A stretch of 64,000 nucleotides of DNA from Oscillospiraceae bacterium. GTDB taxonomy: Bacteria; Bacillota; Clostridia; Oscillospirales; Ruminococcaceae. The stretch spans positions 1 through 64,000 of the forward strand of contig JAFZPP010000046.1 in NCBI GenBank assembly GCA_017550285.1. Direction: 5' to 3'. The notes below the pieces were generated by a model. It was not told the DNA's origin. It worked only from the letters and a program-made list of their open reading frames with translations, and ran no database searches. Below, in pieces: positions 49,427 through 64,000 of the stretch. Position numbers and translations under genes: made by a program. The stretch's first letter is position 1, and each line of letters starts with the position of its first letter.

Positions 49427-51153
<1,727 letters not shown>

Positions 51154-51187
51154 ATCCGTATACCTCCGTTCCATTTTCCGGCAGGAA

Positions 51188-52276
51188 TCAGAGCAGTTCT
51201 CCTCTGCCCTGCTCCCGCAGCATTTCCGTAATTTTTTTGATATTCTGCGCCGCGTCCATATCACAGACCAGCAGCGCATCCTCTGTATCGACAACCACGA
51301 TATTCTCCAGCCCGACCGCTGCAATCAGCTTCTCCCTGCCGGAAAAAACGCAGTTTTTCGTCCCGATTGTGATGATATCGCCGTCGCGGTAATTGCCGTT
51401 TGTATCCGTCTTGGCAACGCGCCGCAGCGCAGGCCAGCTTCCGACGTCATCCCAGCCGAAGCTGCCCGGAATTGTGCAGAGCCGTTCGGTCTTTTCGAGG
51501 ATGCCGAAATCGACGGAGATCGACGGCATATCGGGGAATCGCTTTTGCAGCACGGCATCAAATGCATCCGTATCGCAGGCGTCTCTGATCTCCGCAGCAA
51601 TCTCATATGCCGCCGGAAGATGCGTCTTCACGGCATCAAGAAAGACATCCGTCTTCCAGACAAACATGCCGCTGTTCCAGAGATAATTTCCGGAATTGAC
51701 GTAGCTGCGTGCTGTTTCGGCATCCGGCTTCTCCTTGAAGCTGTCTACCTGATAGACGCCACGCGGCAGATACTTCGCGCGCGAGAAAGCGATATAGCCG
51801 TATCCGGTCTCGGGATAGGTCGGCGTGATGCCGATTGTCACGAGCGAATCGGTCTCCTCCGCGGCAGCGGCTGCACGGCAGAGCACATCGGAACAGATTT
51901 CCTCATGCCGCACGAGATGATCGGCGGGCAGCACAAGCATTGTAGCATTGCCGCTGCGTTTCTGAATCACCGCGGCAGCAAGTGCAATGCAGGGCGCGGT
52001 ATTGCGCGGTGCAGGCTCGGCGAGCAGATTTTCTGCCGGAATATCCGGAAGCTGCTCCCGCACAAGCGGCATATATTCCGCATTTGTGACGATATAGGTC
52101 TGCTCCGGCGGCACCAGACCGCCGACACGCCGGACGGTTTTTTGCAGCATAGTCTCACCGTCGCCTGTCAGCGGCAGAAACTGCTTCGGACAGCGGATGC
52201 GGCTTTTCGGCCAGAAGCGTTCGCCCCTGCCGCCAGCCATAATAACCGCCGTCAGAATCTGATTCGGATTCTGCAT
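51188..52276 (-). CDS. manC: Mannose-1-phosphate guanylyltransferase
   Basis: A 362-residue GDP-mannose pyrophosphorylase. Signature VIMAGGRGERFWPKSR, then KQFLPLTG, the catalytic FKEKPD motif, and WNSGMFVWK. The second, isomerase domain of bifunctional ManC/AlgA enzymes is absent, so the protein is a monofunctional GTP transferase. Makes GDP-mannose for Gmd. Start 52276 with AAGGAG. Confidence 0.93.
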   Translation of the reverse strand: MQNPNQILTAVIMAGGRGERFWPKSRIRCPKQFLPLTGDGETMLQKTVRRVGGLVPPEQTYIVTNAEYMPLVREQLPDIPAENLLAEPAPRNTAPCIALAAAVIQKRSGNATMLVLPADHLVRHEEICSDVLCRAAAAAEETDSLVTIGITPTYPETGYGYIAFSRAKYLPRGVYQVDSFKEKPDAETARSYVNSGNYLWNSGMFVWKTDVFLDAVKTHLPAAYEIAAEIRDACDTDAFDAVLQKRFPDMPSISVDFGILEKTERLCTIPGSFGWDDVGSWPALRRVAKTDTNGNYRDGDIITIGTKNCVFSGREKLIAAVGLENIVVVDTEDALLVCDMDAAQNIKKITEMLREQGRGELL

Positions 52277-52283
52277 ATGGTAT

Positions 52284-53648
52284 TTACTCCTTATTCTTGC
52301 TTTCCGGATGATACGCGGAAAATTCCTCTGCATTTGTTTCCGGCGGAAACAGCGCTGTTTTCAGCGTCAGCAGCAAAATCTGGATATCGAGCAGCAGTGA
52401 ATACTGTTCAATATACATCAGGTCCATTTTCAGCTTATCAATGGGTTCGGTATCGTAGGTACCGGTCACCTGTGCATAGCCGGTCAGTCCGGCTTTGACC
52501 TGCAAACGGTACGGAAATTCGGGATATTTTTTTGCATATTCCTCTGTGAGCTCCGGACGCTCCGGACGCGGTCCGACAAGCGACATTTCGCCGCGCAGGA
52601 TATTGAGCAGCTGCGGCAGCTCATCGAGCCGGAATCTGCGGAGGATTCTGCCGGTTTTCGTAATGCGCATGTCATTGTCCGCGGCAAGGACGGGCTTGCC
52701 GTCTGCCTCCGCATCGGGAATCATGCTGCGGAATTTGAGCACTTCAAATTCCCTGCCGTCGCGTGTCAGCCGGCGCTGCCGGTAAAAGACCGGACCGCCG
52801 TCCTCGAGCCGGACCGCCGCGGCACAGATCAGCATGACCGGCGAAGCGAGCAGCAGCAGCAGCGCAGAAACGACCAGATCAAAGCAGCGCTTGACGATTC
52901 TCTGCTCCGGCGAAAGACCTTCATTGCGGCAGAGGATCAGCGGTGTATCAAAGAGCCGCAGCTCATCGCCGCCGCGCATGAGAATATCCGAAATCTTCGG
53001 TGCAATATAAGCGCGCAGACGGTGTCCGCAGCAGTATTTGAGCAGATCGTTGCGCAGCTCGGCGGGCACCTCGCAGAGGATCACGCCCTCGAATTCATCG
53101 AGCAGCTTTGTGATCTCACGGAGCCCGACCGCACAGCTGATGCTCTCGCAGATCATATATTTATCGACGCGCGTGCTCATTTTCAGGACGAGCTCCGCAG
53201 CCTTGGCAGAGCCGTAAACGATGATGAGCCTGCGCGGCGGAAAAAGCCGGAAGTATAAGCCGCTGATCAGCAGCGCCCAGCCGAATACCGTCACAAAATC
53301 GAGCCCTGTCAGCAGCAGCATCGGTGCAAGCGGCATGAAGTGCCGACCGATCAGGCTGATCTGGAAATAGGTGATCACATTGACAATCGAAACGCCGATC
53401 AGCTGATAGTAGATCAGGTCACTTCGCTTGAGATAGCCGAACTTCGTGCAGTGATAGGCTTTGAAAACCAGCTCCGTCAGTACCAGATAAATCAGCACGA
53501 CGACCCAGTTTCCGCGCCGGAAGAACGGCTCGATAATAATATCTGCGTAATAATGCGCCCAGATCATGCCGAACCAGAGTGTCAGCATCCCGAGCAGCAG
53601 TATGCCGAATACCGTCGAAAAAAGATGCCGGTATTTCCTGTGCTCCAT
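52284..53648 (-). CDS. Undecaprenyl-phosphate sugar phosphotransferase (WbaP-like)
   Basis: A 454-residue enzyme that starts glycan synthesis by putting a sugar-1-phosphate on undecaprenyl phosphate. Four N-terminal membrane segments precede a soluble CoA-binding-like part. The catalytic C-terminal part has KRCFDLVVSALLLLLASP (re-entrant helix), FRSM, RFRLDELPQLLNILRGEMSLVGPRPE and LQVKAGLTGYAQVTGTYD. This is the polyprenyl glycosylphosphotransferase family. First gene of the locus. Preceded by a hairpin next to its ribosome binding site AAGGGAG. Confidence 0.93.
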   Translation of the reverse strand: MEHRKYRHLFSTVFGILLLGMLTLWFGMIWAHYYADIIIEPFFRRGNWVVVLIYLVLTELVFKAYHCTKFGYLKRSDLIYYQLIGVSIVNVITYFQISLIGRHFMPLAPMLLLTGLDFVTVFGWALLISGLYFRLFPPRRLIIVYGSAKAAELVLKMSTRVDKYMICESISCAVGLREITKLLDEFEGVILCEVPAELRNDLLKYCCGHRLRAYIAPKISDILMRGGDELRLFDTPLILCRNEGLSPEQRIVKRCFDLVVSALLLLLASPVMLICAAAVRLEDGGPVFYRQRRLTRDGREFEVLKFRSMIPDAEADGKPVLAADNDMRITKTGRILRRFRLDELPQLLNILRGEMSLVGPRPERPELTEEYAKKYPEFPYRLQVKAGLTGYAQVTGTYDTEPIDKLKMDLMYIEQYSLLLDIQILLLTLKTALFPPETNAEEFSAYHPESKNKE

Positions 53649-54635: not shown

Positions 54636-57629
54636 TTATACTGTCACGGGGACGCGCGCCGGTGCCGGTTCGGATGCCTTTTCCGGTTTCTGTGCCGGAT
54701 GCTCCTCCATCGCCGCGACCAGTGAGCGCAGGCGGATTTTCGCCGCGCCGAGGTTATTGATCTCGTCGATCTTGAGCTGTGTATAGAGCTTGCCGCCCTT
54801 TTCGAGAATCGCGCGCACCTCATCGGTCGTCACGGCGTCGATGCCGCAGCCGAAGGAGACAAGCTGCACGAGCTGCATATCCGGCTGATCGTTGACGAAC
54901 TTCGCTGCGCGGTAGAGCCGCGAATGATAGGTCCACTGATTCAGCACGCCGAGCTTGCCGACCATTGCAAGCGAAGCGACCGCATCCTCACTGATGACCG
55001 CCATACCGAGGCTGGTAATCAGCTTATGGATGCCGTGATTGATTTCCTTGTCGATATGATAAGGTCTGCCTGCAAGGACAATGATCTTTCTGCCCTGCTT
55101 CCGCGCCTCGGTAATAATGCGCTGTGCCTCCTGTGCGACATTCATGCGGTACTGCATCTGCGCGGCATATGCCTGTTTCAGCGCAGTTTTCAGCTCCGCA
55201 GCCGGAATCTGCCATTTGGCAAGCGCATCCCTGAGCGAAAGATACACGCCCTTCTGCCGGTTGAGGTCCATATACGGCGTGATGAAATTCTGCTCGGTGA
55301 GCTTGCTGTTATTGGCACGCAGCAGCTCCGGATAATACGCAACGACCGGACAGTTGTAGTGATTGTCGCTGCATCCCTCATCGAAATTATAGCTCATACA
55401 GGGCCAGAAGATGAAATCGACACCCTGCTCCAGCAGGTCTTCGATGTGCCCGTGTGCCAGCTTTGCCGGATAGCAGACCGTATCCGAAGGGATCGTATGC
55501 TGCCCCTTGTAATACATATCGCGGTCGCTTTCATGCGAGAGTTTTACCGCAAAGCCGAGCCGTGCAAACAGCTCAGACCAGAACGGCATCTGCTCATAGT
55601 AGCTCAGCGCGAGCGGCAGACCGACCGTGCCGCGCCGCTTTCCGAAGACCGGATGCTGATCCTGACTGAGAATCAGTTTATATTTATAATCATAGAGCGA
55701 CGGGATATCATCGGTCTGCTTTTTGCCCGCACCGCGTTCGCAGCGGTTGCCGGAGATGTATCTGCCGCCGTCCGGGAAAATGACGATATTCAGTGCGCAG
55801 TGTGCAGTACAGCCGCCGCATTTTGCGCTGCGGGTCTGATAGCTGAAATCCGCGATTTTCTCCGCAGAGATCGTGGTTGTTTCGGCAGGTGCATGCTCCT
55901 TTGCATAGAGTGCCGCGCCGAATGCGCCCATGAGACCGGAGACCGCCGGACGGATCACATCGCGCCCGAGCTCCATTTCAAATGACCGCAGCACGGCATC
56001 ATTGAGGAAGGTGCCGCCCTGCACGACGATATTCTTTCCGAGCTCATCCACGGATTTTGCGCGGATGACCTTGTAGACTGCATTTTTGATGATCGACGAG
56101 GAAAGACCTGCGGAAATATCCTCGACGGTTGCGCCGTCCTTCTGCGCCTGCTTGACGGAGCTGTTCATGAAGACGGTGCAGCGCGAGCCGAGATCGACCG
56201 GATGCTCTGCGAACAGTCCGAGCTGCGAGAATTCCGCGATATCATAGCCGAGCGCCTGCGCAAAGCTCTGGATAAACGAGCCGCAGCCCGAGGAGCATGC
56301 TTCATTGAGCATGATGCTGTCGATGCTGTGATTGCGGATTTTGAAGCATTTAATATCCTGACCGCCGATGTCCATGATAAAATCGACATCTGGGCAGAAA
56401 TAGGAAGCCGCCTTGAAGTGTGCGACGGTCTCCACGATGCCGAAGTCGATGCCGAGACCTGCGCGGATAAAGTCCTCGCCGTATCCGGTGACCGCCGAAG
56501 CGCGGATATGCAGATCGGGATTCTTTTCGGCATAGATTTTTTTGAGCTGCTTGACGATTCTGTCGAGCGGCTGACCGCGGTTTGCCGCATAATACTGATA
56601 AAGCAGATCGCCGTCGCCGGTAATCAGCACGAGCTTTGTGGTTGTTGAACCCGCGTCGATGCCGAGATAGGCATCGCCCTTGAAGGTATGCAGATCGGCA
56701 AAGGGCAGGTCATGCGCCTTATGCCGTTCGATAAATGCCTCATATTCCTTCCGGCTGCGGAAGAGCGGCTCGCCGGTGACGGTATTGCCGCCGGTCTCCG
56801 CATGCTCGAGCTTGTCCTGCGCCTCTGCAAGCGTCATCGGTCCGACGGACTGCGAAGCGTACATTGCACAGCCGTATGCAACAAATACCGGTGCATTTTC
56901 CGGAAAAATCGCGTGTGCATCGTCGAGCTTCAGCGTCCGGACGAACGCCTGCCGCAGACCCTGAAGGAAGGAAAGCGGACCGCCGAGAAACAGCACGGTG
57001 CCCTCAATGGTTCTGCCCTGTGCAAGACCCGAAACGGTCTGATCGACGACCGCCTGAAAGATGCTCGCCGCGATATCCTCGCGCTTTGCGCCCTGATTGA
57101 GCAGCGGTTGGATATCGGATTTTGCAAAAACGCCGCAGCGGGAAGCGATCGGATAGCGTTTTTCTGCTTTCAGCGAGAGTGCATCCATTTCGTCCGCCGT
57201 GATGCCGAGGAGCGTTGCCATCTGGTCGATGAACGCGCCGGTGCCGCCTGCGCAGGAGCCGTTCATGCGCTGCTCGACGCCGCCGGTCAGGAAGATCATC
57301 TTCGCATCCTCGCCGCCGAGCTCGATCACCACATCCGCCTGCGGATAATCCGACTTGACCGCAAGGAATGCCGCATGGACCTCCTGCACAAACGGGATAT
57401 CCGCGCTCTGCGCAAGACCGAGTCCTGCCGAGCCGGTGATGCAGATTTTGAACTGTGCATCGGGGAACTGTTTTTTCAGATCCTGAAGCTGAGCCATGAC
57501 CGTTTCACGGACGCGGGACATATGGCGCTGATAGCAGCGCGAAAGAATCTGATTCTGCGCATCAATCACCACAGTTTTGACCGTCGTTGAGCCGACGTCA
57601 ATGCCGAGAGCATACACGTTTTGACGCAA
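54636..57629 (-). CDS. Acyl-CoA dehydratase activase, tandem BadF-like ATPase
   Basis: A 997-residue protein with two ASKHA ATPase units: GIDVGSTTVKTVVID with cluster motif GSCAGGTGAFIDQ, and GIDAGSTTTKLVLITGDG with NEACSSGCGSFIQS. Each contains the cysteine that binds the shared [4Fe-4S] cluster in HgdC-type activators. After these come a cysteine-rich stretch (KCGGCTAHC, GNRCERG) and a DUF2229-like part with PSDTVCYPAKLAHGH and WPCMSYNF. Related proteins power 2-hydroxyacyl-CoA dehydratases by ATP-driven electron transfer. Many homologues run to ~1400 residues; this is shorter at the C-terminus. TTG start at 57629 after AAGGAGGT. No dehydratase is nearby. Confidence 0.88.
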   Translation of the reverse strand: MRQNVYALGIDVGSTTVKTVVIDAQNQILSRCYQRHMSRVRETVMAQLQDLKKQFPDAQFKICITGSAGLGLAQSADIPFVQEVHAAFLAVKSDYPQADVVIELGGEDAKMIFLTGGVEQRMNGSCAGGTGAFIDQMATLLGITADEMDALSLKAEKRYPIASRCGVFAKSDIQPLLNQGAKREDIAASIFQAVVDQTVSGLAQGRTIEGTVLFLGGPLSFLQGLRQAFVRTLKLDDAHAIFPENAPVFVAYGCAMYASQSVGPMTLAEAQDKLEHAETGGNTVTGEPLFRSRKEYEAFIERHKAHDLPFADLHTFKGDAYLGIDAGSTTTKLVLITGDGDLLYQYYAANRGQPLDRIVKQLKKIYAEKNPDLHIRASAVTGYGEDFIRAGLGIDFGIVETVAHFKAASYFCPDVDFIMDIGGQDIKCFKIRNHSIDSIMLNEACSSGCGSFIQSFAQALGYDIAEFSQLGLFAEHPVDLGSRCTVFMNSSVKQAQKDGATVEDISAGLSSSIIKNAVYKVIRAKSVDELGKNIVVQGGTFLNDAVLRSFEMELGRDVIRPAVSGLMGAFGAALYAKEHAPAETTTISAEKIADFSYQTRSAKCGGCTAHCALNIVIFPDGGRYISGNRCERGAGKKQTDDIPSLYDYKYKLILSQDQHPVFGKRRGTVGLPLALSYYEQMPFWSELFARLGFAVKLSHESDRDMYYKGQHTIPSDTVCYPAKLAHGHIEDLLEQGVDFIFWPCMSYNFDEGCSDNHYNCPVVAYYPELLRANNSKLTEQNFITPYMDLNRQKGVYLSLRDALAKWQIPAAELKTALKQAYAAQMQYRMNVAQEAQRIITEARKQGRKIIVLAGRPYHIDKEINHGIHKLITSLGMAVISEDAVASLAMVGKLGVLNQWTYHSRLYRAAKFVNDQPDMQLVQLVSFGCGIDAVTTDEVRAILEKGGKLYTQLKIDEINNLGAAKIRLRSLVAAMEEHPAQKPEKASEPAPARVPVTV

Positions 57630-57680
57630 TGTTTTGGACCTCCTTCGCCGCGAAAGCATAATGCGGCATAATACGGTACT

Positions 57681-57689
57681 ATTATAGCA
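57681..57689 (-). promoter_or_regulatory. Extended -10 promoter of the activase gene
   Basis: Minus strand TGCTATAAT, about 50 bases before the TTG start. The -35 is poor. Confidence 0.6.
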
Positions 57690-57832
57690 CAAATGCAGAA
57701 AAAAAGAAACCCCCAAACAGCCATATTCATAATTTATTCATATTTATCCTGCAAAATCTGCACATTTCCGGCGATGAACCGTCCGCGCCTGTGCAAAATA
57801 CCATGTCAGAATCCGGAAACCGCAGGAGATGA

Positions 57833-57920: not shown

Positions 57921-58166
57921 ATGGAATCGAGAGTCGCAGTCATTGCGATCATCGTGCAGGACAGCAGCTCCGCCGCGAGCATCAATGCGCTCCTGCATGA
58001 ATACGACCAGTTTATCATCGGGCGCATGGGCATCCCCTACCGCACAAAGGGAATCAGCATCATCAACATTGCCATTGACGCGCCGCAGGATGCGATCAAC
58101 CGCCTCGCAGGCGGCATCGGCAGACTCAGCGGTGTCAGTGCCAAAACCGTTTACGCGCCCGCATGA
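57921..58166 (+). CDS. TM1266-type small regulator (iron-only hydrogenase system regulator)
   Basis: An 81-residue ACT-like/ferredoxin-fold protein. The family pattern is clear: VAVIAIIVQD, SSAASINALLHEYDQFIIGRMGIPY, GISIINIAIDAPQDAINRLAGGIGRLSGVSAKTVYA. TM1266-like proteins are usually linked with [FeFe]-hydrogenase maturation genes, and are assumed to be regulators, without much experimental proof. Here the gene stands just before a nitrogenase-like operon, 165 bases upstream, instead of hyd genes. Confidence 0.82.
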   Translation: MESRVAVIAIIVQDSSSAASINALLHEYDQFIIGRMGIPYRTKGISIINIAIDAPQDAINRLAGGIGRLSGVSAKTVYAPA

Positions 58167-58221: not shown

Positions 58222-58314
58222 GCTGTCTTGCGGCAAAAGTACGACAGCCGGACATATGCAACCGGTACAGCCGTATTTTCTTTTTCGGAAGAGGATACGG
58301 CTTTTTTATGTCCG
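58222..58314 (+). ncRNA. Candidate structured leader RNA before the nitrogenase-like operon
   Basis: Three helices: GCTGTC/GACAGC (58222-58227, 58243-58248), then CGGACATA/TATGTCCG (58249-58256, 58307-58314) enclosing AGCCGTAT/ATACGGCT (58269-58276, 58295-58302). The last is followed by TTTTTT (58302-58307), the form of an intrinsic terminator, and the T-run abuts the outer helix. It ends 16 bases before the first NifH-like gene. This fits an attenuator or riboswitch, but could also be a simple terminator of the regulator gene. Type unknown. Confidence 0.5.
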
Positions 58315-58330
58315 CGGAAAGGAAATCACC

Positions 58331-59101
58331 ATGATCAAAATTGCGATATACGGCAAAGGCGGCATCGGCAAATCGACGATCTCCGGCAATCTGTCGGCGG
58401 AATTTGCCGCGAGAGGTCTGCGCGTCATGCAGATTGGCTGCGACCCGAAGGCAGATTCGACCGCGCTGTTGCATCACGGCAGCCGCATCCCGACCGTTTT
58501 GCAGCTCGAGCGCGAAAGGGGAAACAAAATCGCGCTCGAAGATATTGTCACCGTCAGCGAAAGCGGCGTGATCTGCGTAGAGGCGGGCGGACCCGTGCCG
58601 GGCGTCGGCTGCGCGGGCAGAGGCATCATCAATGCGCTCGAAACGCTCAAAAAGCTCGGTGCCTACGAGAAATATCAGCCGGATATCGTACTCTATGACG
58701 TCCTCGGCGACGTTGTCTGCGGCGGCTTCTCCATGCCGATGCGCAAGGGCTATGCCGACCGTGTTTTCGTGGTCACATCCGGCGAAAAAATGGCGCGCTA
58801 TGCAGCGGCGAATATCTGCATGGCAGTGCAGAATTTTCAGGGGCGCGGCTATGCATCGCTCGGCGGTCTGATTCTCAACTGCCGCGGCGTTCCCGACGAG
58901 CAGGCGCTGACGGAGGCGCTCGCTGCGGATTTTGATACAAAAATCGTCGGAACGATTCCGCGTTCACAGGAGATTCAGCAGGCGGATGCCGAGGGATGTC
59001 CGTTTATTGTCCGGTATCCGGATTGTCAGGCGGCTGTGCAGCTCCGTGCGCTGGCGGATGCGATGCTGAAAGAATGTGAGGCATCAGATGCAGCAGTATG
59101 A
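58331..59101 (+). CDS. Nitrogenase-reductase-like protein 1 (NifH-like)
   Basis: A 256-residue iron protein homologue. P-loop [10 protein letters not shown] (residues 7-16), switch I CDPKADST, cluster cysteine C94 in [25 protein letters not shown] with second cluster cysteine C130 and switch II (D-V-L-G). Both cysteines that hold the intersubunit [4Fe-4S] cluster in NifH are present, so it should be a functional ATP-driven electron donor. Shorter than classical NifH (~290), lacking C-terminal residues. AAAGGAAA upstream. Its end overlaps the NifD-like start by 14 bases. Confidence 0.92.
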
Positions 59102-60398
59102 AAAGCCGCCGGTCATCCGCATGGCAGATGCCGATGCAGGCAGTGCATTTGCCTCGGGGCTCGAGTACAATCCGCCGGTGCGCGGCATGTGGAATATCGT
59201 GCATATGGGGATGCTCGTGCCGGAGGCGCATCAGGTCTATGCCTGCGCGCAGGGCTGTCTGCGCGGCGTCATCCTGACGGCTGCGGAAATGAATCAGCTC
59301 GACCGTCTGAGCTGGATTTCACTGACCGAGGAGGATATGTTCAACGGCACACTGGAAAGCAGTCTGGTCGAGGGCGTCAGCGAGATTATTGAAAAGCTGG
59401 GGACACATCCGCCGATGATTCCGCTGTTTCTGAGCTGCATGCATCTCTTTGCGGGCTGCGATTTTGACAGCGTTCTCGCCGATCTCAGCGCACGGTACCC
59501 CGATATCACCTTTGTCGATTGCTATATGACACCGACGATGCGCCTGACGATCTCGCCGGTCGCACAGTGCAGCCGTCAGCTTTATATGGGCTTGCAGCCG
59601 CTGCCGCAGAATCCGAAGGCAGTGAATCTGATCGGCTGCGACCGTCCGACCGATGAACACTCGGAGCTGCTGCGGATCATCCGCGGTGCAGGACTGATTC
59701 TGCACGATCTGCCGCTCTGCAAGACCTATGCGGAATATCTGCAAATGGCAGAGAGCAAACTCAATATCGCCTATCTGCCGACGGCGCATGCGGCGCTCGA
59801 TGCACTCGAAGAAAAGCTCGGGATTCCGCAGCTTTATCTGCCGGCGCGGTTTGATTTTGACGGGCTCCGTGAGAATTACCGGATGCTCTGCGATGCGCTG
59901 GAGATTGCCTGTCCCGATTTTTCCGATGAAGCCGCCGCGGCGGATGCAGCGCTCCGTGCGGCAAAGGAGACAATCGGCGAAACGGCGGTTGCGGTTGATT
60001 ATACGGCAGTCTCAAGACCGTTTGAGCTGGCAAAGCTGCTCTGCGAATACGGCTTCAACGTAAAATATATCGTTGCGGATGCGGCAGGCGAGGATGCGGA
60101 TGCATTTGCATGGCTGAAAGAAAACCGTCCGGATATTCTGCTGTATTCTCCGACAAATGTCAATATGCTGCATCAGCATGAAAAGGCGCCGGAGCCGGTG
60201 CTTGCGGTCGGACAGAAGGCTGCGTATTATTTTGCGACCGACCGCTTTGTGAATTTTGTGGTTAACGGCGGATATTACGGCTTTGCGGGTATCAAAGCAA
60301 TCGCGGAACTGATGCAGGATGCCTTCTGCAATCCGAAGGACCGCCGCCCGCTGCTGCGGCATAAGGGCTACGGCTGCGATTCGTGCCTGTTAAGTTAA
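59088..60398 (+). CDS. Nitrogenase component 1-like protein (NifD-like)
   Basis: A 436-residue homologue of NifD/BchN-type subunits, shorter than NifD (~490). Candidate cluster cysteines: C53 and C57 in [10 protein letters not shown] and C117 in [11 protein letters not shown], which correspond in position to the P-cluster ligands around C62 and C154 of NifD. No cysteine is seen where the middle ligand (C88) would be, and C124 follows closely. Further cysteines: C145, C161 and a C-terminal GYGCDSCL. I see no basis for FeMo-cofactor binding. ATG 59088 is preceded by GAGG. Likely forms a heterodimer or tetramer with the next gene product. Confidence 0.82.
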
Positions 60399-60408
60399 TG
60401 GTGAGAAT

Positions 60409-61569
60409 ATGAAGCAAACAGCAAGAATCATTCCGTGCTATGCGGCAGATACCTCCGGTGTCTGCGCGGCACTCTATGAGCTCGGCGGCATGGTCGCCGT
60501 GCATGACGCATCCGGCGTCAACTCAACCTACGCAACACATGATGAGCCGCGCTGGGAGGATATGCAGTCGATGATCTATGTCTCCGGACTGACGGAGCTT
60601 GACGCAATCCTCGGAAATGACGAAAAATTCATCGCCGATGCCGCTGCGGCTGCGGCAGATCAGAAGCCGCGGTTTATTGCGGTCTGCGGCTCACCGATGC
60701 CAATGATGATCGGCGTGGATTTTGATGCGGTCGCAGCGGAGATTGAACAGCGCAGCGGCATCCGCACCTTTGCGCTGCACACAAACGGGATGCATTCCTA
60801 TCCCGAAGGCGCTTCGGAGGCGCTGCTTGCGATTACAAAGGAATATGTGCTGCCGCCGGCGGAGACAATCCGGAACGGCGTGAATATCCTCGGCGCACTG
60901 CCGCTTGATTTCGGCAATCCGGAGGAGATTCCGGACATCCGCGTATGGCTTTGCAAAAACGGTTTTTCCGTGATTTCCTGCATCGCAGCGGGCGATTCGC
61001 TTGATACAATCGCCAAAGCAGGCAATGCGGCAGTCAATCTCGTTGTCTCCTACAGCGGACTTGCCGCAGCGGAGTATTTGTATGATCGTTTCGGGATACC
61101 GTATGTCTGCGGCGTACCGTTCGGCGGCGTATTCTCGCAGATACTCGCAGATTCCCTGCGGCATGCGGCAGAGAGCGGTCAGCCGGAATCCCCCTGCACA
61201 TCCCGCGGCACATCCGGCAGAAGCATCGCCGTCATCGGAGAGAATCTCATCGGCGGTTCGATTGCAGCGCAGCTCGGATGTATGGGCTTGGCAGCGCATC
61301 TGATCTGTCCGCTGCCGCATTCGGACAAGCTGCTGATGCAGGGTGATGCGGATGCTTCATCGGAAGAGGAAATCGAACAGTATCTTGCGCAGATGCAGCC
61401 CTGTGCGGTCATTGCCGATCCGCTCTACCGCTTCATCCTGCCGAAAGGTACCAGACATATCGAGCTGCCGCATTATGCATTTTCCGGCAGATGCTTTGAA
61501 CGGCAGATGCAGAATCTGACCGGCAGCCGGTTTGACGCATGGCTTTCACAGAACGGAGGACTGCAATGA
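60409..61569 (+). CDS. Nitrogenase component 1-like protein (NifK-like)
   Basis: A 386-residue homologue of NifK/BchB-type subunits, well below NifK size (~520). Candidate cluster ligands: C10 (IIPCYAAD), C19 (SGVCAALYEL) and C93 in AVCGSPMPMMIGVDF, where the C...IG-x-D pattern matches the C153 region of NifK. The middle part ALPLDFGNPEEIPDIRVWL resembles the NIG domain start. The spacing of three cysteines suits a bridging cluster shared with the NifD-like protein. It follows after 10 bases. Substrate unknown. Confidence 0.8.
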   Translation: MKQTARIIPCYAADTSGVCAALYELGGMVAVHDASGVNSTYATHDEPRWEDMQSMIYVSGLTELDAILGNDEKFIADAAAAAADQKPRFIAVCGSPMPMMIGVDFDAVAAEIEQRSGIRTFALHTNGMHSYPEGASEALLAITKEYVLPPAETIRNGVNILGALPLDFGNPEEIPDIRVWLCKNGFSVISCIAAGDSLDTIAKAGNAAVNLVVSYSGLAAAEYLYDRFGIPYVCGVPFGGVFSQILADSLRHAAESGQPESPCTSRGTSGRSIAVIGENLIGGSIAAQLGCMGLAAHLICPLPHSDKLLMQGDADASSEEEIEQYLAQMQPCAVIADPLYRFILPKGTRHIELPHYAFSGRCFERQMQNLTGSRFDAWLSQNGGLQ

Positions 61570-61961
61570 AACAGAAAACACTGCATATCTGCATTGCGTA
61601 CGGGTTCCATGTAATCCTGATGATACTGGGCTTTTTTCTGATGCGCCGCGAGCATGAGATGATGGATGTTCTGCTGATTGCAGGCGGTGTCCTGTATCTC
61701 ATTTACTGGTGCATCGTCAACCGGAAGCAGTTTCTGTCATGGGCGGTTTACCTGCATTTTGTAATCGGGACGGCTTTGCAGATTACCCTGAATTCTGCCG
61801 GCATCATTCCGCCGGACAACGGCTTTTTCTCAGGGATGGGGCAGGCGGTTTATGTGGTTTTGGTATGTCTGCTCGGCTTGCTTGCCGGCATTGTGAATCT
61901 GATTCTGTGGCTGATTGACAAACGGCGCAGAAAGCGGTCTGCGGCGGCGCCCGAAGGCTGA
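61566..61961 (+). CDS. Small four-helix membrane protein
   Basis: A 131-residue protein with four hydrophobic segments (about residues 7-25, 33-50, 56-75 and 88-117) and a basic C-terminus KRRRKRSA. I do not recognise the family. ATG overlaps the NifK-like stop (ATGA), with GGAGG upstream, so it is translated with the nitrogenase-like subunits. It may tie the system to the membrane or to a transported substrate. Confidence 0.75.
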   Translation: MKQKTLHICIAYGFHVILMILGFFLMRREHEMMDVLLIAGGVLYLIYWCIVNRKQFLSWAVYLHFVIGTALQITLNSAGIIPPDNGFFSGMGQAVYVVLVCLLGLLAGIVNLILWLIDKRRRKRSAAAPEG

Positions 61962-62014
61962 ACAAATGAGAAACATGCAGACTGTGTGCTGCATGCATGA
62001 TAAAGAGGCATATT

Positions 62015-62785
62015 ATGATCAAACTTGCGATATACGGAAAAGGCGGCATCGGCAAATCGACCTGCACGGCGAATCTTGCGGCGGCGTTTGCGATGCGCGG
62101 CAAAAAGGTCATTCAGATCGGCTGCGACCCGAAGGCAGATTCGACGATCAATCTGCTCGGCGGTACGCCTGTGACGCCGGTTATGGATTATCTGCGCGAT
62201 CATGACGAGGAACCCGACCGGCTCGAACAGATTTCGCAGCGCGGCTTCGGGGATATTCTCTGCATTGAGACAGGCGGTCCGACGCCCGGACTCGGCTGTG
62301 CAGGACGCGGCATCATTACGACATTCAGTCTGCTGAATGAGCTGCGGCTGTTTGAGCGATGTCAGCCGGATGTTGTGCTCTATGATGTCCTCGGCGACGT
62401 CGTCTGCGGCGGATTTGCCGCACCGATCAGAGAGGGCTATGCAGAGAAGGTGCTGATTGTCACCTCCGGCGAAAAAATGGCGCTCTATGCAGCGAACAAT
62501 ATCCATAACGCCGTGAAAAATTTTGAAGACCGCAGCTATGCAAAGGTGCGCGGCATCATCCTCAACCGCCGCAATGTCACCGATGAGGAGCAGAAGGTGC
62601 GCGCATTTGCGGAATCCGCAGGGCTGGATATCGCGGCGGATATCCCGAGATCGGATGATATCACAAAGTATGAAGATATGGGCAAAACCGTGATCGAGGG
62701 CGATCCGGAATGCGAAACTGCAAAACGTTTCTTCGCGCTTGCCGATCTGCTCATCTCGGAGGAAGCGGAAAATGAGAAGAGCTGA
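62015..62785 (+). CDS. Nitrogenase-reductase-like protein 2 (NifH-like)
   Basis: A second 256-residue NifH-like protein. P-loop [18 protein letters not shown], cluster cysteine C95 in GLGCAGRGI and C131 in [16 protein letters not shown]. The segment [20 protein letters not shown] is closer to standard NifH than the matching part of the first copy. Residues 106-125 and the C-terminal half diverge from copy 1, so the two have probably been separate for long and may serve different partners. GAGG lies 8 bases before the ATG. Confidence 0.92.
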
Positions 62786-63242
62786 CAGAGCGATCACCGA
62801 TGCGGCACAGATCGCGGCGTTTCTTGCAAAAGAACAGATCATCCGCATTGCGTTTTACGATCACGGTGAGATTTACATTGTGCCGGTCAACTACGGTATT
62901 CTGATTGAAAACGGGCAGTACCGCTTCTATTTTCACGGCGCAAAGGCAGGCAGAAAATATACGCTGAGCCTTGCAAATCCGGAGATCGGGTTTGAGATCG
63001 ACGGCGATTATGCGCTGATCGCGGCGGAAACCGGCTGCGGACATTCTGCCAAATTCATGAGCGTGACCGGAACGGGCAGCGTCAGCATCGTCACGGATGA
63101 TGCGGAACGAATCAGCGGGCTGCAATGCCTGATGCGGCAGGCGACCGGCAAAGCAGACTGGTCCTTTGATGAAGCGGTGATGCAGAAAACGGCTGTGTTC
63201 CGGATTGATGTGCAGACATTTTCCTGCAAGGCGAAGGGATAA
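62772..63242 (+). CDS. PPOX-family flavoprotein (NimA-like)
   Basis: A 156-residue split-barrel protein of the pyridoxamine-phosphate-oxidase-like class. The early [42 protein letters not shown] and late C-terminal strand match the NimA/FMN-binding subgroup, which reduces nitro compounds or other small molecules. It overlaps the second NifH-like gene by 14 bases. In this operon it may take part in electron transfer or in handling the product. Confidence 0.85.
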
Positions 63243-63246
63243 TGCG

Positions 63247-63993
63247 ATGAATGCAAAGGAACAGATTGCAGCGGCAAAGCAGGGCTTTGAACAGAGCTTT
63301 GCGGCAGGTGATTTTTACAATAAGCAGACGCAGGATGCAAACCATTTGCAGCAGATTCTATCATTTCTGCCGCTGAAAAGCGGAATGCGCGTGCTCGATC
63401 TCGGAACGGGCAGCGGCTATCTTGCATTTGCGCTCGCGGCGGCGCATCCGGATATCGAAATCACAGGGCTCGATATTGTAGAGCAGGCACTGGATGTCAG
63501 CCGCAAAAGGGCGGCGCGGGAACAGCTTGCCAATCTGCATTTTGTCAGCTATGACGGCATGCGGTTTCCGTTTGCAGACGGTGCATTTGATCTGACCGTA
63601 TCGCGGTATGCGCTGCATCATTTCCCCGAAATACGCAGCAGCATCGCAGAAATCGGCAGGGTGCTTGCAGCTGACGGCAGCTTCTTTCTCTCCGATCCTG
63701 CGCCGAATGACTGTGATACAGAACGATTTGCCGATGCCTTTATGAAGATGAAGCCGGACGGGCATATCCGGTTTTATACGCGCGGTGAATGGGATGCGCT
63801 CTGCACGGAGCAGGGCATGCGGCGCACCGGTGCATTTGACAGTGTGATCCGGTTTCCGCGGAAGAAGGATGCGCGGTATGATACGCTGCTGCAACAGTAT
63901 CCGCAGGAAATCACAGACAGCTATCAGATCAGTGAATCCGGCGATGAAATATGGATTACGGAGCAGGTCAATAATCTGCTGTACCGGAAATGA
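63247..63993 (+). CDS. Class I SAM-dependent methyltransferase
   Basis: A 248-residue methyltransferase of the UbiE/Methyltransf_11 kind. Motif I VLDLGTGSGYLAFAL (residue ~50), acidic end of strand 2 GLDIVEQAL, motif II DGAFDLTVSRYALHHF, and the post-motif LAADGSFFLSDPAP. Follows the flavoprotein after 4 bases, RBS AAGGG. Its presence suggests that the product of the nitrogenase-like enzyme is methylated, or that a methylated substrate is made for it. The operon may continue past the window. Confidence 0.9.
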   Translation: MNAKEQIAAAKQGFEQSFAAGDFYNKQTQDANHLQQILSFLPLKSGMRVLDLGTGSGYLAFALAAAHPDIEITGLDIVEQALDVSRKRAAREQLANLHFVSYDGMRFPFADGAFDLTVSRYALHHFPEIRSSIAEIGRVLAADGSFFLSDPAPNDCDTERFADAFMKMKPDGHIRFYTRGEWDALCTEQGMRRTGAFDSVIRFPRKKDARYDTLLQQYPQEITDSYQISESGDEIWITEQVNNLLYRK

Positions 63994-64000
63994 ACTGCGT

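Follow-up and report, generated by a model that had tools for sequence, protein, structure and literature searches.

In maturation of the H-cluster, the cofactor of [FeFe]-hydrogenase, by HydE, HydF and HydG, the CO and CN ligands are considered to come from HydG (PMC3105041, PMC11736057). Specifically, HydG makes [Fe(CO)2(CN)(Cys)] from tyrosine; in the proposed next steps, HydE reduces and dimerises this product and HydF loads HydA (PMC11736057). Removal of hydG together with ech from C. thermocellum left H2 undetectable (PMC4355364); an organism with an [FeFe]-hydrogenase and without HydG should therefore need some replacement. Among eight Clostridium acetogens, hydG was undetected in five and HypCDEF occurred without HypAB in five, four species being in both sets, and the authors consider atypical HydG-like radical S-adenosylmethionine (SAM) candidates or mechanisms "not yet identified" (PMC9431212). 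Nitrogenase relatives with roles other than N2 fixation are also described, of which CfbCD likewise acts in cofactor building (PMC12176620, PMC12552129, PMC11423573). The stretch analysed here (the window) comprises bases 1-64000 of the 108,443-base contig JAFZPP010000046.1 from an Oscillospiraceae bacterium, whose genome is 3.41 Mb in size and 96% complete. It contains the first part of a gene run in which two sets of nitrogenase-like genes, encoding NifH-like Fe proteins (H1, H2), NifD-like subunits (D1, D2) and NifK-like subunits (K1, K2), stand together with hypF, hypC, hypD and hypE.

We propose that this nitrogenase-like/Hyp block is very probably an ATP-driven, HydG-independent route to the H-cluster that replaces HydG. 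Comparative genomics supports the replacing role; the chemistry we infer. The presumed end use equals that of HydE-HydF-HydG maturation, and hydE, hydF and the gene of a TM1266-family regulator are kept, often in one run with the block, whereas HydG is missing and the block stands in its stead. NCBIfam names the TM1266 family as that of a putative iron-only hydrogenase system regulator. Because HydE and HydF are retained, the conservative label is a variant of H-cluster maturation, and gut bacteria would seem to have in this system an as yet undescribed means of assembling the CO/CN-bearing iron site of their hydrogen-producing enzymes. Like the Clostridium acetogens above, the source genome has HydE and HydF with hydG missing; the relevant passages of PMC9431212 name no nitrogenase-like genes.

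The first line of evidence is the absence of HydG. A scan of a genome collection with D1 gave 88 relatives, of which the best 80 were used as loci; the source genome and the genomes of 40 chosen from these loci make up 41 operon genomes (genomes and loci carry our G and L numbers). HydF scores over its cut-off in 39 of the 41 and the [FeFe]-hydrogenase family PF02906 is matched in 40, whereas the profile search found HydG over cut-off in none of the 41. This negative result covers Ruminococcus albus AR67, KH2T6 and 8 as well as R. bicirculans 80/3 (G001-G004); studies of multimeric [FeFe]-hydrogenases have included that of R. albus (PMC5626996). The source genome encodes HydE (528 bits, cut-off 255), HydF (511 bits, cut-off 326) and a HydA that carries the three H-cluster motifs and adjoins a HydB-like gene. 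Its best match to the HydG model scores 184 bits (cut-off 312). A HydG hidden in this genome was considered and rejected: the 184-bit match is ThiH (510 bits with the ThiH model, cut-off 380), and a second match of 63 bits is the 528-bit HydE. Comparable sub-cut-off matches of 174-190 bits and about 350 aa occur in the other operon genomes, the ThiH identity having been checked in the source genome. When a HydG protein was compared by BLAST with the open frames in the 80 loci, L001 and 20 further regions, the top score was 164 bits (ThiH), and no frame in the D1 loci was more HydG-like than ThiH- or HydE-type scores.

The second line of evidence is the distribution of D1 in the class, for which 216 genomes, requested at a completeness of at least 90%, were searched for HydF, HydG and D1. 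HydF is over cut-off in 146 of these genomes and HydG in 140; strong D1 (at least 438 bits) occurs in 10, and weaker D'/K' homologues (311-337 bits; G103, G157, G165, G171), counted apart, occur in four. All 10 strong-D1 genomes have HydF and are without HydG. The 11 genomes with HydF and without HydG consist of these 10 plus G180, whereas the 135 genomes with both HydF and HydG include none with strong D1 and three with a weaker relative; when the weaker relatives are included, the contrast is 10/11 versus 3/135. In five genomes (G051, G123, G133, G154, G186), HydG but not HydF exceeds its cut-off, which may reflect assembly gaps. Strong D1 is spread over five families, four of which also have HydG-positive members, and a single genus (g54) is found in both states, with D1 in G090, G159, G178 and G213 and HydG in G114 and G247. 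The g54 loci themselves display either hydG (L150, L151) or an H2D2K2-Hyp-D1K1 block with one NifH-like gene alongside (L115-L118), and such a species pair is well suited to genetics.

In many genomes, the block occupies the genomic place that hydG has in others. We examined 20 hydG regions from the 140 HydG-positive genomes, chosen mostly because hydF is near. In these regions, hydG stands with TM1266, hydE and hydF in 12 and with some of them in the other eight, TM1266 lies beside hydG in 18, and no H, D or K gene is present. In strong-D1 genomes, many of them, the H/D/K block takes the place among hydE, hydF and TM1266 where the others have hydG. Additionally, a comparison of 14 HydE sequences from HydG-positive genomes with 54 from D1-positive genomes revealed no non-conservative switch, so HydE of D1 genomes may receive the same substrate as in HydG genomes.

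The gene run in the source genome is composed of the following features:

57921..58166, plus strand: TM1266-family regulator, 81 aa, just upstream of H1 (TIGR03959 105 bits, cut-off 60.8)
58331..59101, plus strand: H1, NifH-like Fe protein with P-loop, 256 aa (PF00142, Fer4_NifH, 286 bits), cluster cysteines C94/C130
59088 (ATG) to 60398 (stop), plus strand: D1, NifD-like subunit, 436 aa (PF00148, Oxidored_nitro, 88 bits); an upstream GTG at 59076 is also a possible start
60409..61569, plus strand: K1, NifK-like subunit, 386 aa (PF00148 101 bits)
about 61566-61961, plus strand: small putative membrane protein, no Pfam family above cut-off
62015..62785, plus strand: H2, second NifH-like Fe protein, 256 aa (PF00142 291 bits), cluster cysteines C95/C131
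about 62772-63242, plus strand: PPOX-type flavoprotein (PF12900, Pyridox_ox_2, 64 bits)
63247..63993, plus strand: SAM methyltransferase (PF13847, Methyltransf_31, 84 bits)
64060-65346, plus strand: D2, second NifD-like subunit (PF00148 100 bits), the first gene beyond the window end at 64000
65545-66573, plus strand: K2, second NifK-like subunit (PF00148 58 bits)
between K2 and HypF, plus strand: CdiI_3-like protein, then GNAT protein
68035-70356, plus strand: HypF (NCBIfam 760 bits, over cut-off)
between HypF and HypC, plus strand: small pyrophosphatase-like protein
70685-70894, plus strand: HypC (NCBIfam 61 bits, over cut-off)
70891-71934, plus strand: HypD (NCBIfam 403 bits, over cut-off)
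between HypD and HypE, plus strand: glyoxalase-like protein
about 72801-73808, plus strand: HypE (NCBIfam 413 bits, over cut-off)

An original prediction, made from the window alone, had described the seven genes from H1 to the methyltransferase as one operon. The genes, their strand and their overlaps and short gaps are as it stated, and the cluster cysteines of H1 and H2 and the lengths of D1 and K1 are exact. As a seven-gene set, however, the operon does not hold: the same-strand run continues past the window end, starting with D2, and three of the seven genes are rare companions of D1 (below). Intergenic gaps in the run are mostly short or overlapping, the longer ones being about 200 bases before K2 and about 430 bases before HypE. 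Since most gaps are short and two are longer, the whole run may form one transcript.

The association of D1 with its partners is not due to chance, as it recurs in 80 loci, 79 of them from Bacillota, among which are 39 from Ruminococcus and 12 from Lachnospiraceae, and one from Lentisphaerota. The conserved core consists of the TM1266-type regulator, H1D1K1, H2D2K2 and hypF-C-D-E. In the 49 loci that extend 1.5 kb or more upstream and 9.5 kb or more downstream of D1, the genes for H2, D2 and K2 are found in 47, TM1266 in 46, HypF in 45, HypC and HypD in 43 each and HypE in 35. Within 12 kb of D1, after exclusion of ABC, FecCD, MT, GNAT and ACT2HAD matches below 38% identity, the counts among the 80 loci are 79 for H1, 69 for H2, 68 for TM1266, 52 for HydE and 41 for HydF, and these are lower bounds because many loci end at contig ends. 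H2 goes together with D2, K2 and Hyp, and the system usually begins with TM1266. R. bicirculans 80/3 and three R. albus genomes (L061, L033, L037, L049) share the order TM1266-hydF-hydE-H1-D1-K1-H2-D2-K2-hypF-hypC-hypD-hypE, L113 reads TM1266-hydF-hydE-H1D1-K1-H2-D2-K2-hypF-C-D-E, and L116 reads H2-D2-K2-hypF-C-D-E-TM1266-D1-K1-hydF-hydE. The original prediction had proposed surveying related genomes for constant partners; these turn out to be D2/K2, HypFCDE, TM1266 and often HydE/HydF rather than the set it named. In the same count, the PPOX, methyltransferase and membrane protein genes lie within 12 kb of D1 in two, five and one of the 80 loci, respectively, which rules them out as core parts and leaves the predicted "methylation before or after" a reductive step unsupported.

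Next to the partners, the nitrogenase-like proteins themselves define the system. The GKGGIGKS motif is kept in 79 of 80 H1 and in all 70 H2 proteins, those of the source among them, and D1, K1, D2 and K2 all score over the PF00148 cut-off. Structure prediction, also proposed at the outset, gave AlphaFold2 (AF2) monomer models of D1 (pLDDT 85.6) and D2 (pLDDT 83.8) with the nitrogenase fold. Foldseek matched both models with a probability of 1.00, the top matches including MoFe and other nitrogenase subunits and NifEN. Together with the conserved cysteines, these models indicate a component-1 fold with cysteines at cluster-like positions. D1 conserves C45, C49, C109, C137 and C422 (numbered by the first row of the D1 alignment); by eye, we take the conserved D/K cysteines to lie at P-cluster or 4Fe-4S ligand positions of nitrogenases, and the FeMo-co position presumably lacks a cysteine in the D/K proteins. 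The K1 cysteine at a cluster position in HDASGxN is kept in 70 of 77 K1 proteins and is valine in seven, source K1 included, so this cluster may differ in the source clade. In L113 (10708-12804, minus strand), H1 and D1 form one open frame of 698 aa, either a natural fusion of Fe protein and component 1 or a lost stop.

These features are shared with NifEN and NifDK plus NifH, namely the fold, the NifH cluster cysteines and, by eye, cysteines at P-cluster-like positions, whereas the K subunits here are short, the scores fall far below the nif equivalog cut-offs and the tree groups are separate. Specifically, H1, H2, D1, K1, D2 and K2 all score below the NCBIfam equivalog cut-offs for nitrogenase, DPOR/COR and CfbCD, the D/K proteins far below. 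H1 and H2 reach 302 and 306 bits with TIGR01287 (cut-off 394), short of the scores of an N2-fixing nitrogenase, and the D/K proteins stay far under nifD, nifK, nifE and nifN. CfbCD (F430), DPOR/COR, methylthio-alkane reductase (Mar) and isethionate NFL resemble the system as members of the nitrogenase superfamily with non-N2 roles. From CfbCD it differs in that H1 and H2 score 301 and 297 bits with the CfbC model NF033200 (cut-off 402), and K1 and D2 score 20 and 16 bits with the CfbD model TIGR03282 (cut-off 268), D1 and K2 being unlisted. The MarD-type sequence 9fmg matches by phmmer, thus by sequence only, at E 0.21 for D1 (level with NifE) and E 0.092 for K1 (worse than BchB and NifE); the MarDK comparison uses PDB sequences and folds. 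The best curated models for D2 and K2 are NifEN/NifE, at 67 and 35 bits. In a quick tree without Mar sequences, D1, D2, K1 and K2 each form one group separate from NifD, K, E and N and from BchN and B, the Bch branches being long. The predicted assignment to a nitrogenase-like system outside the known enzymes therefore stands with regard to nitrogenase, DPOR/COR and CfbCD by cut-offs, and the proposed D/K phylogeny agrees for NifDKEN and BchNB, with CfbD judged by model score.

The Hyp genes follow the second D/K pair. HypC, D, E and F of the source exceed their cut-offs and the HypE C-terminus is PRIC in 35 of 40, a tail that we take to be the cyanide carrier, so that they resemble HypABCDEF maturation, whereas the source genome has no NiFe hydrogenase and its hyp genes lie in a run with nitrogenase-like genes. 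In the class, HypD occurs in 41 of 216 genomes. All seven genomes with D1 and D2 have HypD, and none of the seven has a NiFe-hydrogenase large subunit; in contrast, 28 of the 34 other HypD-positive genomes, which are without D2, were tested, and all 28 have a NiFe hydrogenase (the NiFe search left out seven genomes: six HypD-positive ones without D2, plus G165). Three strong-D1 genomes (G166, G235, G101) have no D2 match with the D1 model at E 1e-20 and no HypD, and their operons contain a binding protein, a FecCD permease and an ATP-binding cassette (ABC) ATPase instead of D2/Hyp, as do L082 and L084. Examples are the one-module runs TM1266-FecCD-ABC-hydE-H1-D1-K1-SBP-hydF (L084) and hydE-H1-D1-K1-SBP-FecCD-ABC-hydF-TM1266 (L110), in both of which Pfam confirms the importer genes (SBP, binding protein). 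In particular, the importer ATPase of L084 (7039-8109; PF00005) carries a fused C-terminal TM1266-like domain (PF21699, 62 bits, residues 279-350), which ties the importer to the hydrogenase system. Because the HypD-less D1 genomes have importer genes instead, the system seems to come in two alternative forms, one with two modules (D1K1 + H2D2K2 + HypCDEF) and the other with a single module (H1D1K1 + importer).

For the chemistry we propose, with moderate confidence, the following scheme. As when NiFe hydrogenases are matured, HypF and HypE would make cyanide from carbamoyl phosphate, and HypC/HypD would build and carry an Fe-cyanide-CO unit, Fe(CN)(CO). The NifH-like ATPases H2 and H1 would push low-potential electrons into D2K2 and D1K1, which, like NifEN, would act on a cofactor precursor, D2K2 before D1K1, an order guessed from their partners. 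The two complexes would reduce the precursor and/or swap its ligands, perhaps with CO from CO2, and thereby remodel it to a synthon equivalent to the [Fe(CO)2(CN)(Cys)] of HydG; HydE would then make the diiron unit and HydF deliver it to HydA. D1K1, usually with H1, would be the indispensable module and H2D2K2 with HypCDEF a supply module, for which a FecCD-type importer, bringing in an iron complex, seems to substitute in some lineages. The ATP-driven reductase for a small molecule of the original prediction thus survives as a nitrogenase-like system; since the frequent partners are the second D/K pair, HypFCDE, TM1266 and often HydE/HydF, the likely substrate is not a free small molecule but a precursor for the cofactor of [FeFe]-hydrogenase.

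Several observations weigh against replacement of HydG by this route. Fisher's test on the strong-D1 contrast gives a p of about 1.2e-14 with genomes treated as independent, their relatedness being ignored. HydE and HydF trees, for which 17 of 54 HydE and 20 of 48 HydF sequences from D1 genomes were used, suggest several swaps, but well-supported branches force only one. The source genome carries hydE and hydF outside the run, on contigs C17 and C9, and in G146 and G166 hydF is elsewhere too. G180, which is 99% complete, has TM1266-hydE-hydF (L127, 8046-10543) but neither D1 nor a HydG over cut-off; therefore, HydE and HydF may be retained in the absence of both, or the assembly lacks a HydG that the organism has. 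The known product of HypCDEF is Fe(CN)2CO, not the Fe(CO)2CN of HydG, which leaves the ligand step unexplained, and the one-module lineages without HypD mean that Hyp is not essential to HydG replacement. A 50-bit NiFe-type match occurs in three of the 41 operon genomes (G029, G030, G033). Finally, the weaker D'/K' group accompanies an importer in the HydG-positive genomes G103, G157 and G171 with no hydE or hydF alongside, and is also found in G165 (no HydF over cut-off) and on a plasmid of Treponema, likewise with no adjacent hydE or hydF; H-D-K plus transporter therefore has another use too. On that plasmid, pTS1 of Treponema saccharophilum (L130, 14998-21294), H-D-K is followed by a binding protein, an iron-type ABC permease and an ATPase, with no hydEF in the stretch, and three loci of HydG-positive clostridia (L119, L120, L121) have the same layout. 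G180, for its part, represents an assembly gap or a third solution.

Among the alternatives, it is possible, if rather doubtful, that D1K1 itself generates CO from CO2 and gives free diatomics or reducing power to HydE/HydF, with Hyp only supplying cyanide. Nitrogenases can reduce CO2 to CO, and the 10 strong-D1 genomes among the 11 with HydF and without HydG include the HypD-less G166, G235 and G101, both of which speak for it. HydE and HydF alone have also given about 1% activation with trace diatomics in earlier work (PMC9431212). However, this leaves unexplained both the pairing of D2 with HypD in seven of seven genomes and the cargo of the importer in one-module operons. It is improbable that the block makes another cofactor or carries out another reduction and is merely co-regulated with hydE/hydF, the H-cluster ligands then coming from free CO and CN. 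G180, the related HDK-importer operons away from hydEF and the separate hydE and hydF of the source would fit such a case, whereas the strong-D1 contrast (10/11 versus 0/135), the position of the block with hydE/hydF where others have hydG and the swap inside one genus argue against it.

That HypCDEF serves an undetected NiFe hydrogenase and lies in the operon by chance is highly improbable: despite the weak matches in G029, G030 and G033, no NiFe large subunit was found in the source genome, in 38 of the 41 operon genomes or in any of the seven D2 class genomes, and hyp and H2D2K2 share one run across families, so the assignment of these Hyp genes to a NiFe hydrogenase was rejected. Least probable of all is a free-standing small-metabolite reductase with methyltransferase and PPOX steps, since both genes are in the source operon but in few of the 80 loci, and hydrogenase maturation genes are the frequent partners.

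If HydG replacement by the nitrogenase-like/Hyp block is correct, gut and rumen bacteria would have a second route to the H-cluster, in which the nitrogenase, NiFe-hydrogenase and FeFe-hydrogenase assembly machineries are joined in one pathway. It would give nitrogenase relatives a new job and HypCDEF a use outside NiFe hydrogenases, might account for acetogens in which hydG went undetected, and would offer hydrogen biotechnology a second maturation kit. Among the matches listed from the open-licence literature, no title or abstract start connects maturation of [FeFe]-hydrogenase with Hyp or nitrogenase-like proteins; since subscription papers and preprints are mostly outside that literature, novelty is not proven.

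Two further gene groups lie upstream of the run on the minus strand. A gene at 54636-57716, which adjoins the operon, encodes a 1026-aa protein resembling 2-hydroxyacyl-CoA dehydratase activators (BcrAD_BadFG + DUF2229), and such a gene is near D1 in one of the 80 loci. Farther upstream, at 49427-53648, are genes that by eye concern surface sugars (GDP-mannose dehydratase-like, mannose-1-phosphate guanylyltransferase-like and sugar transferase-like).

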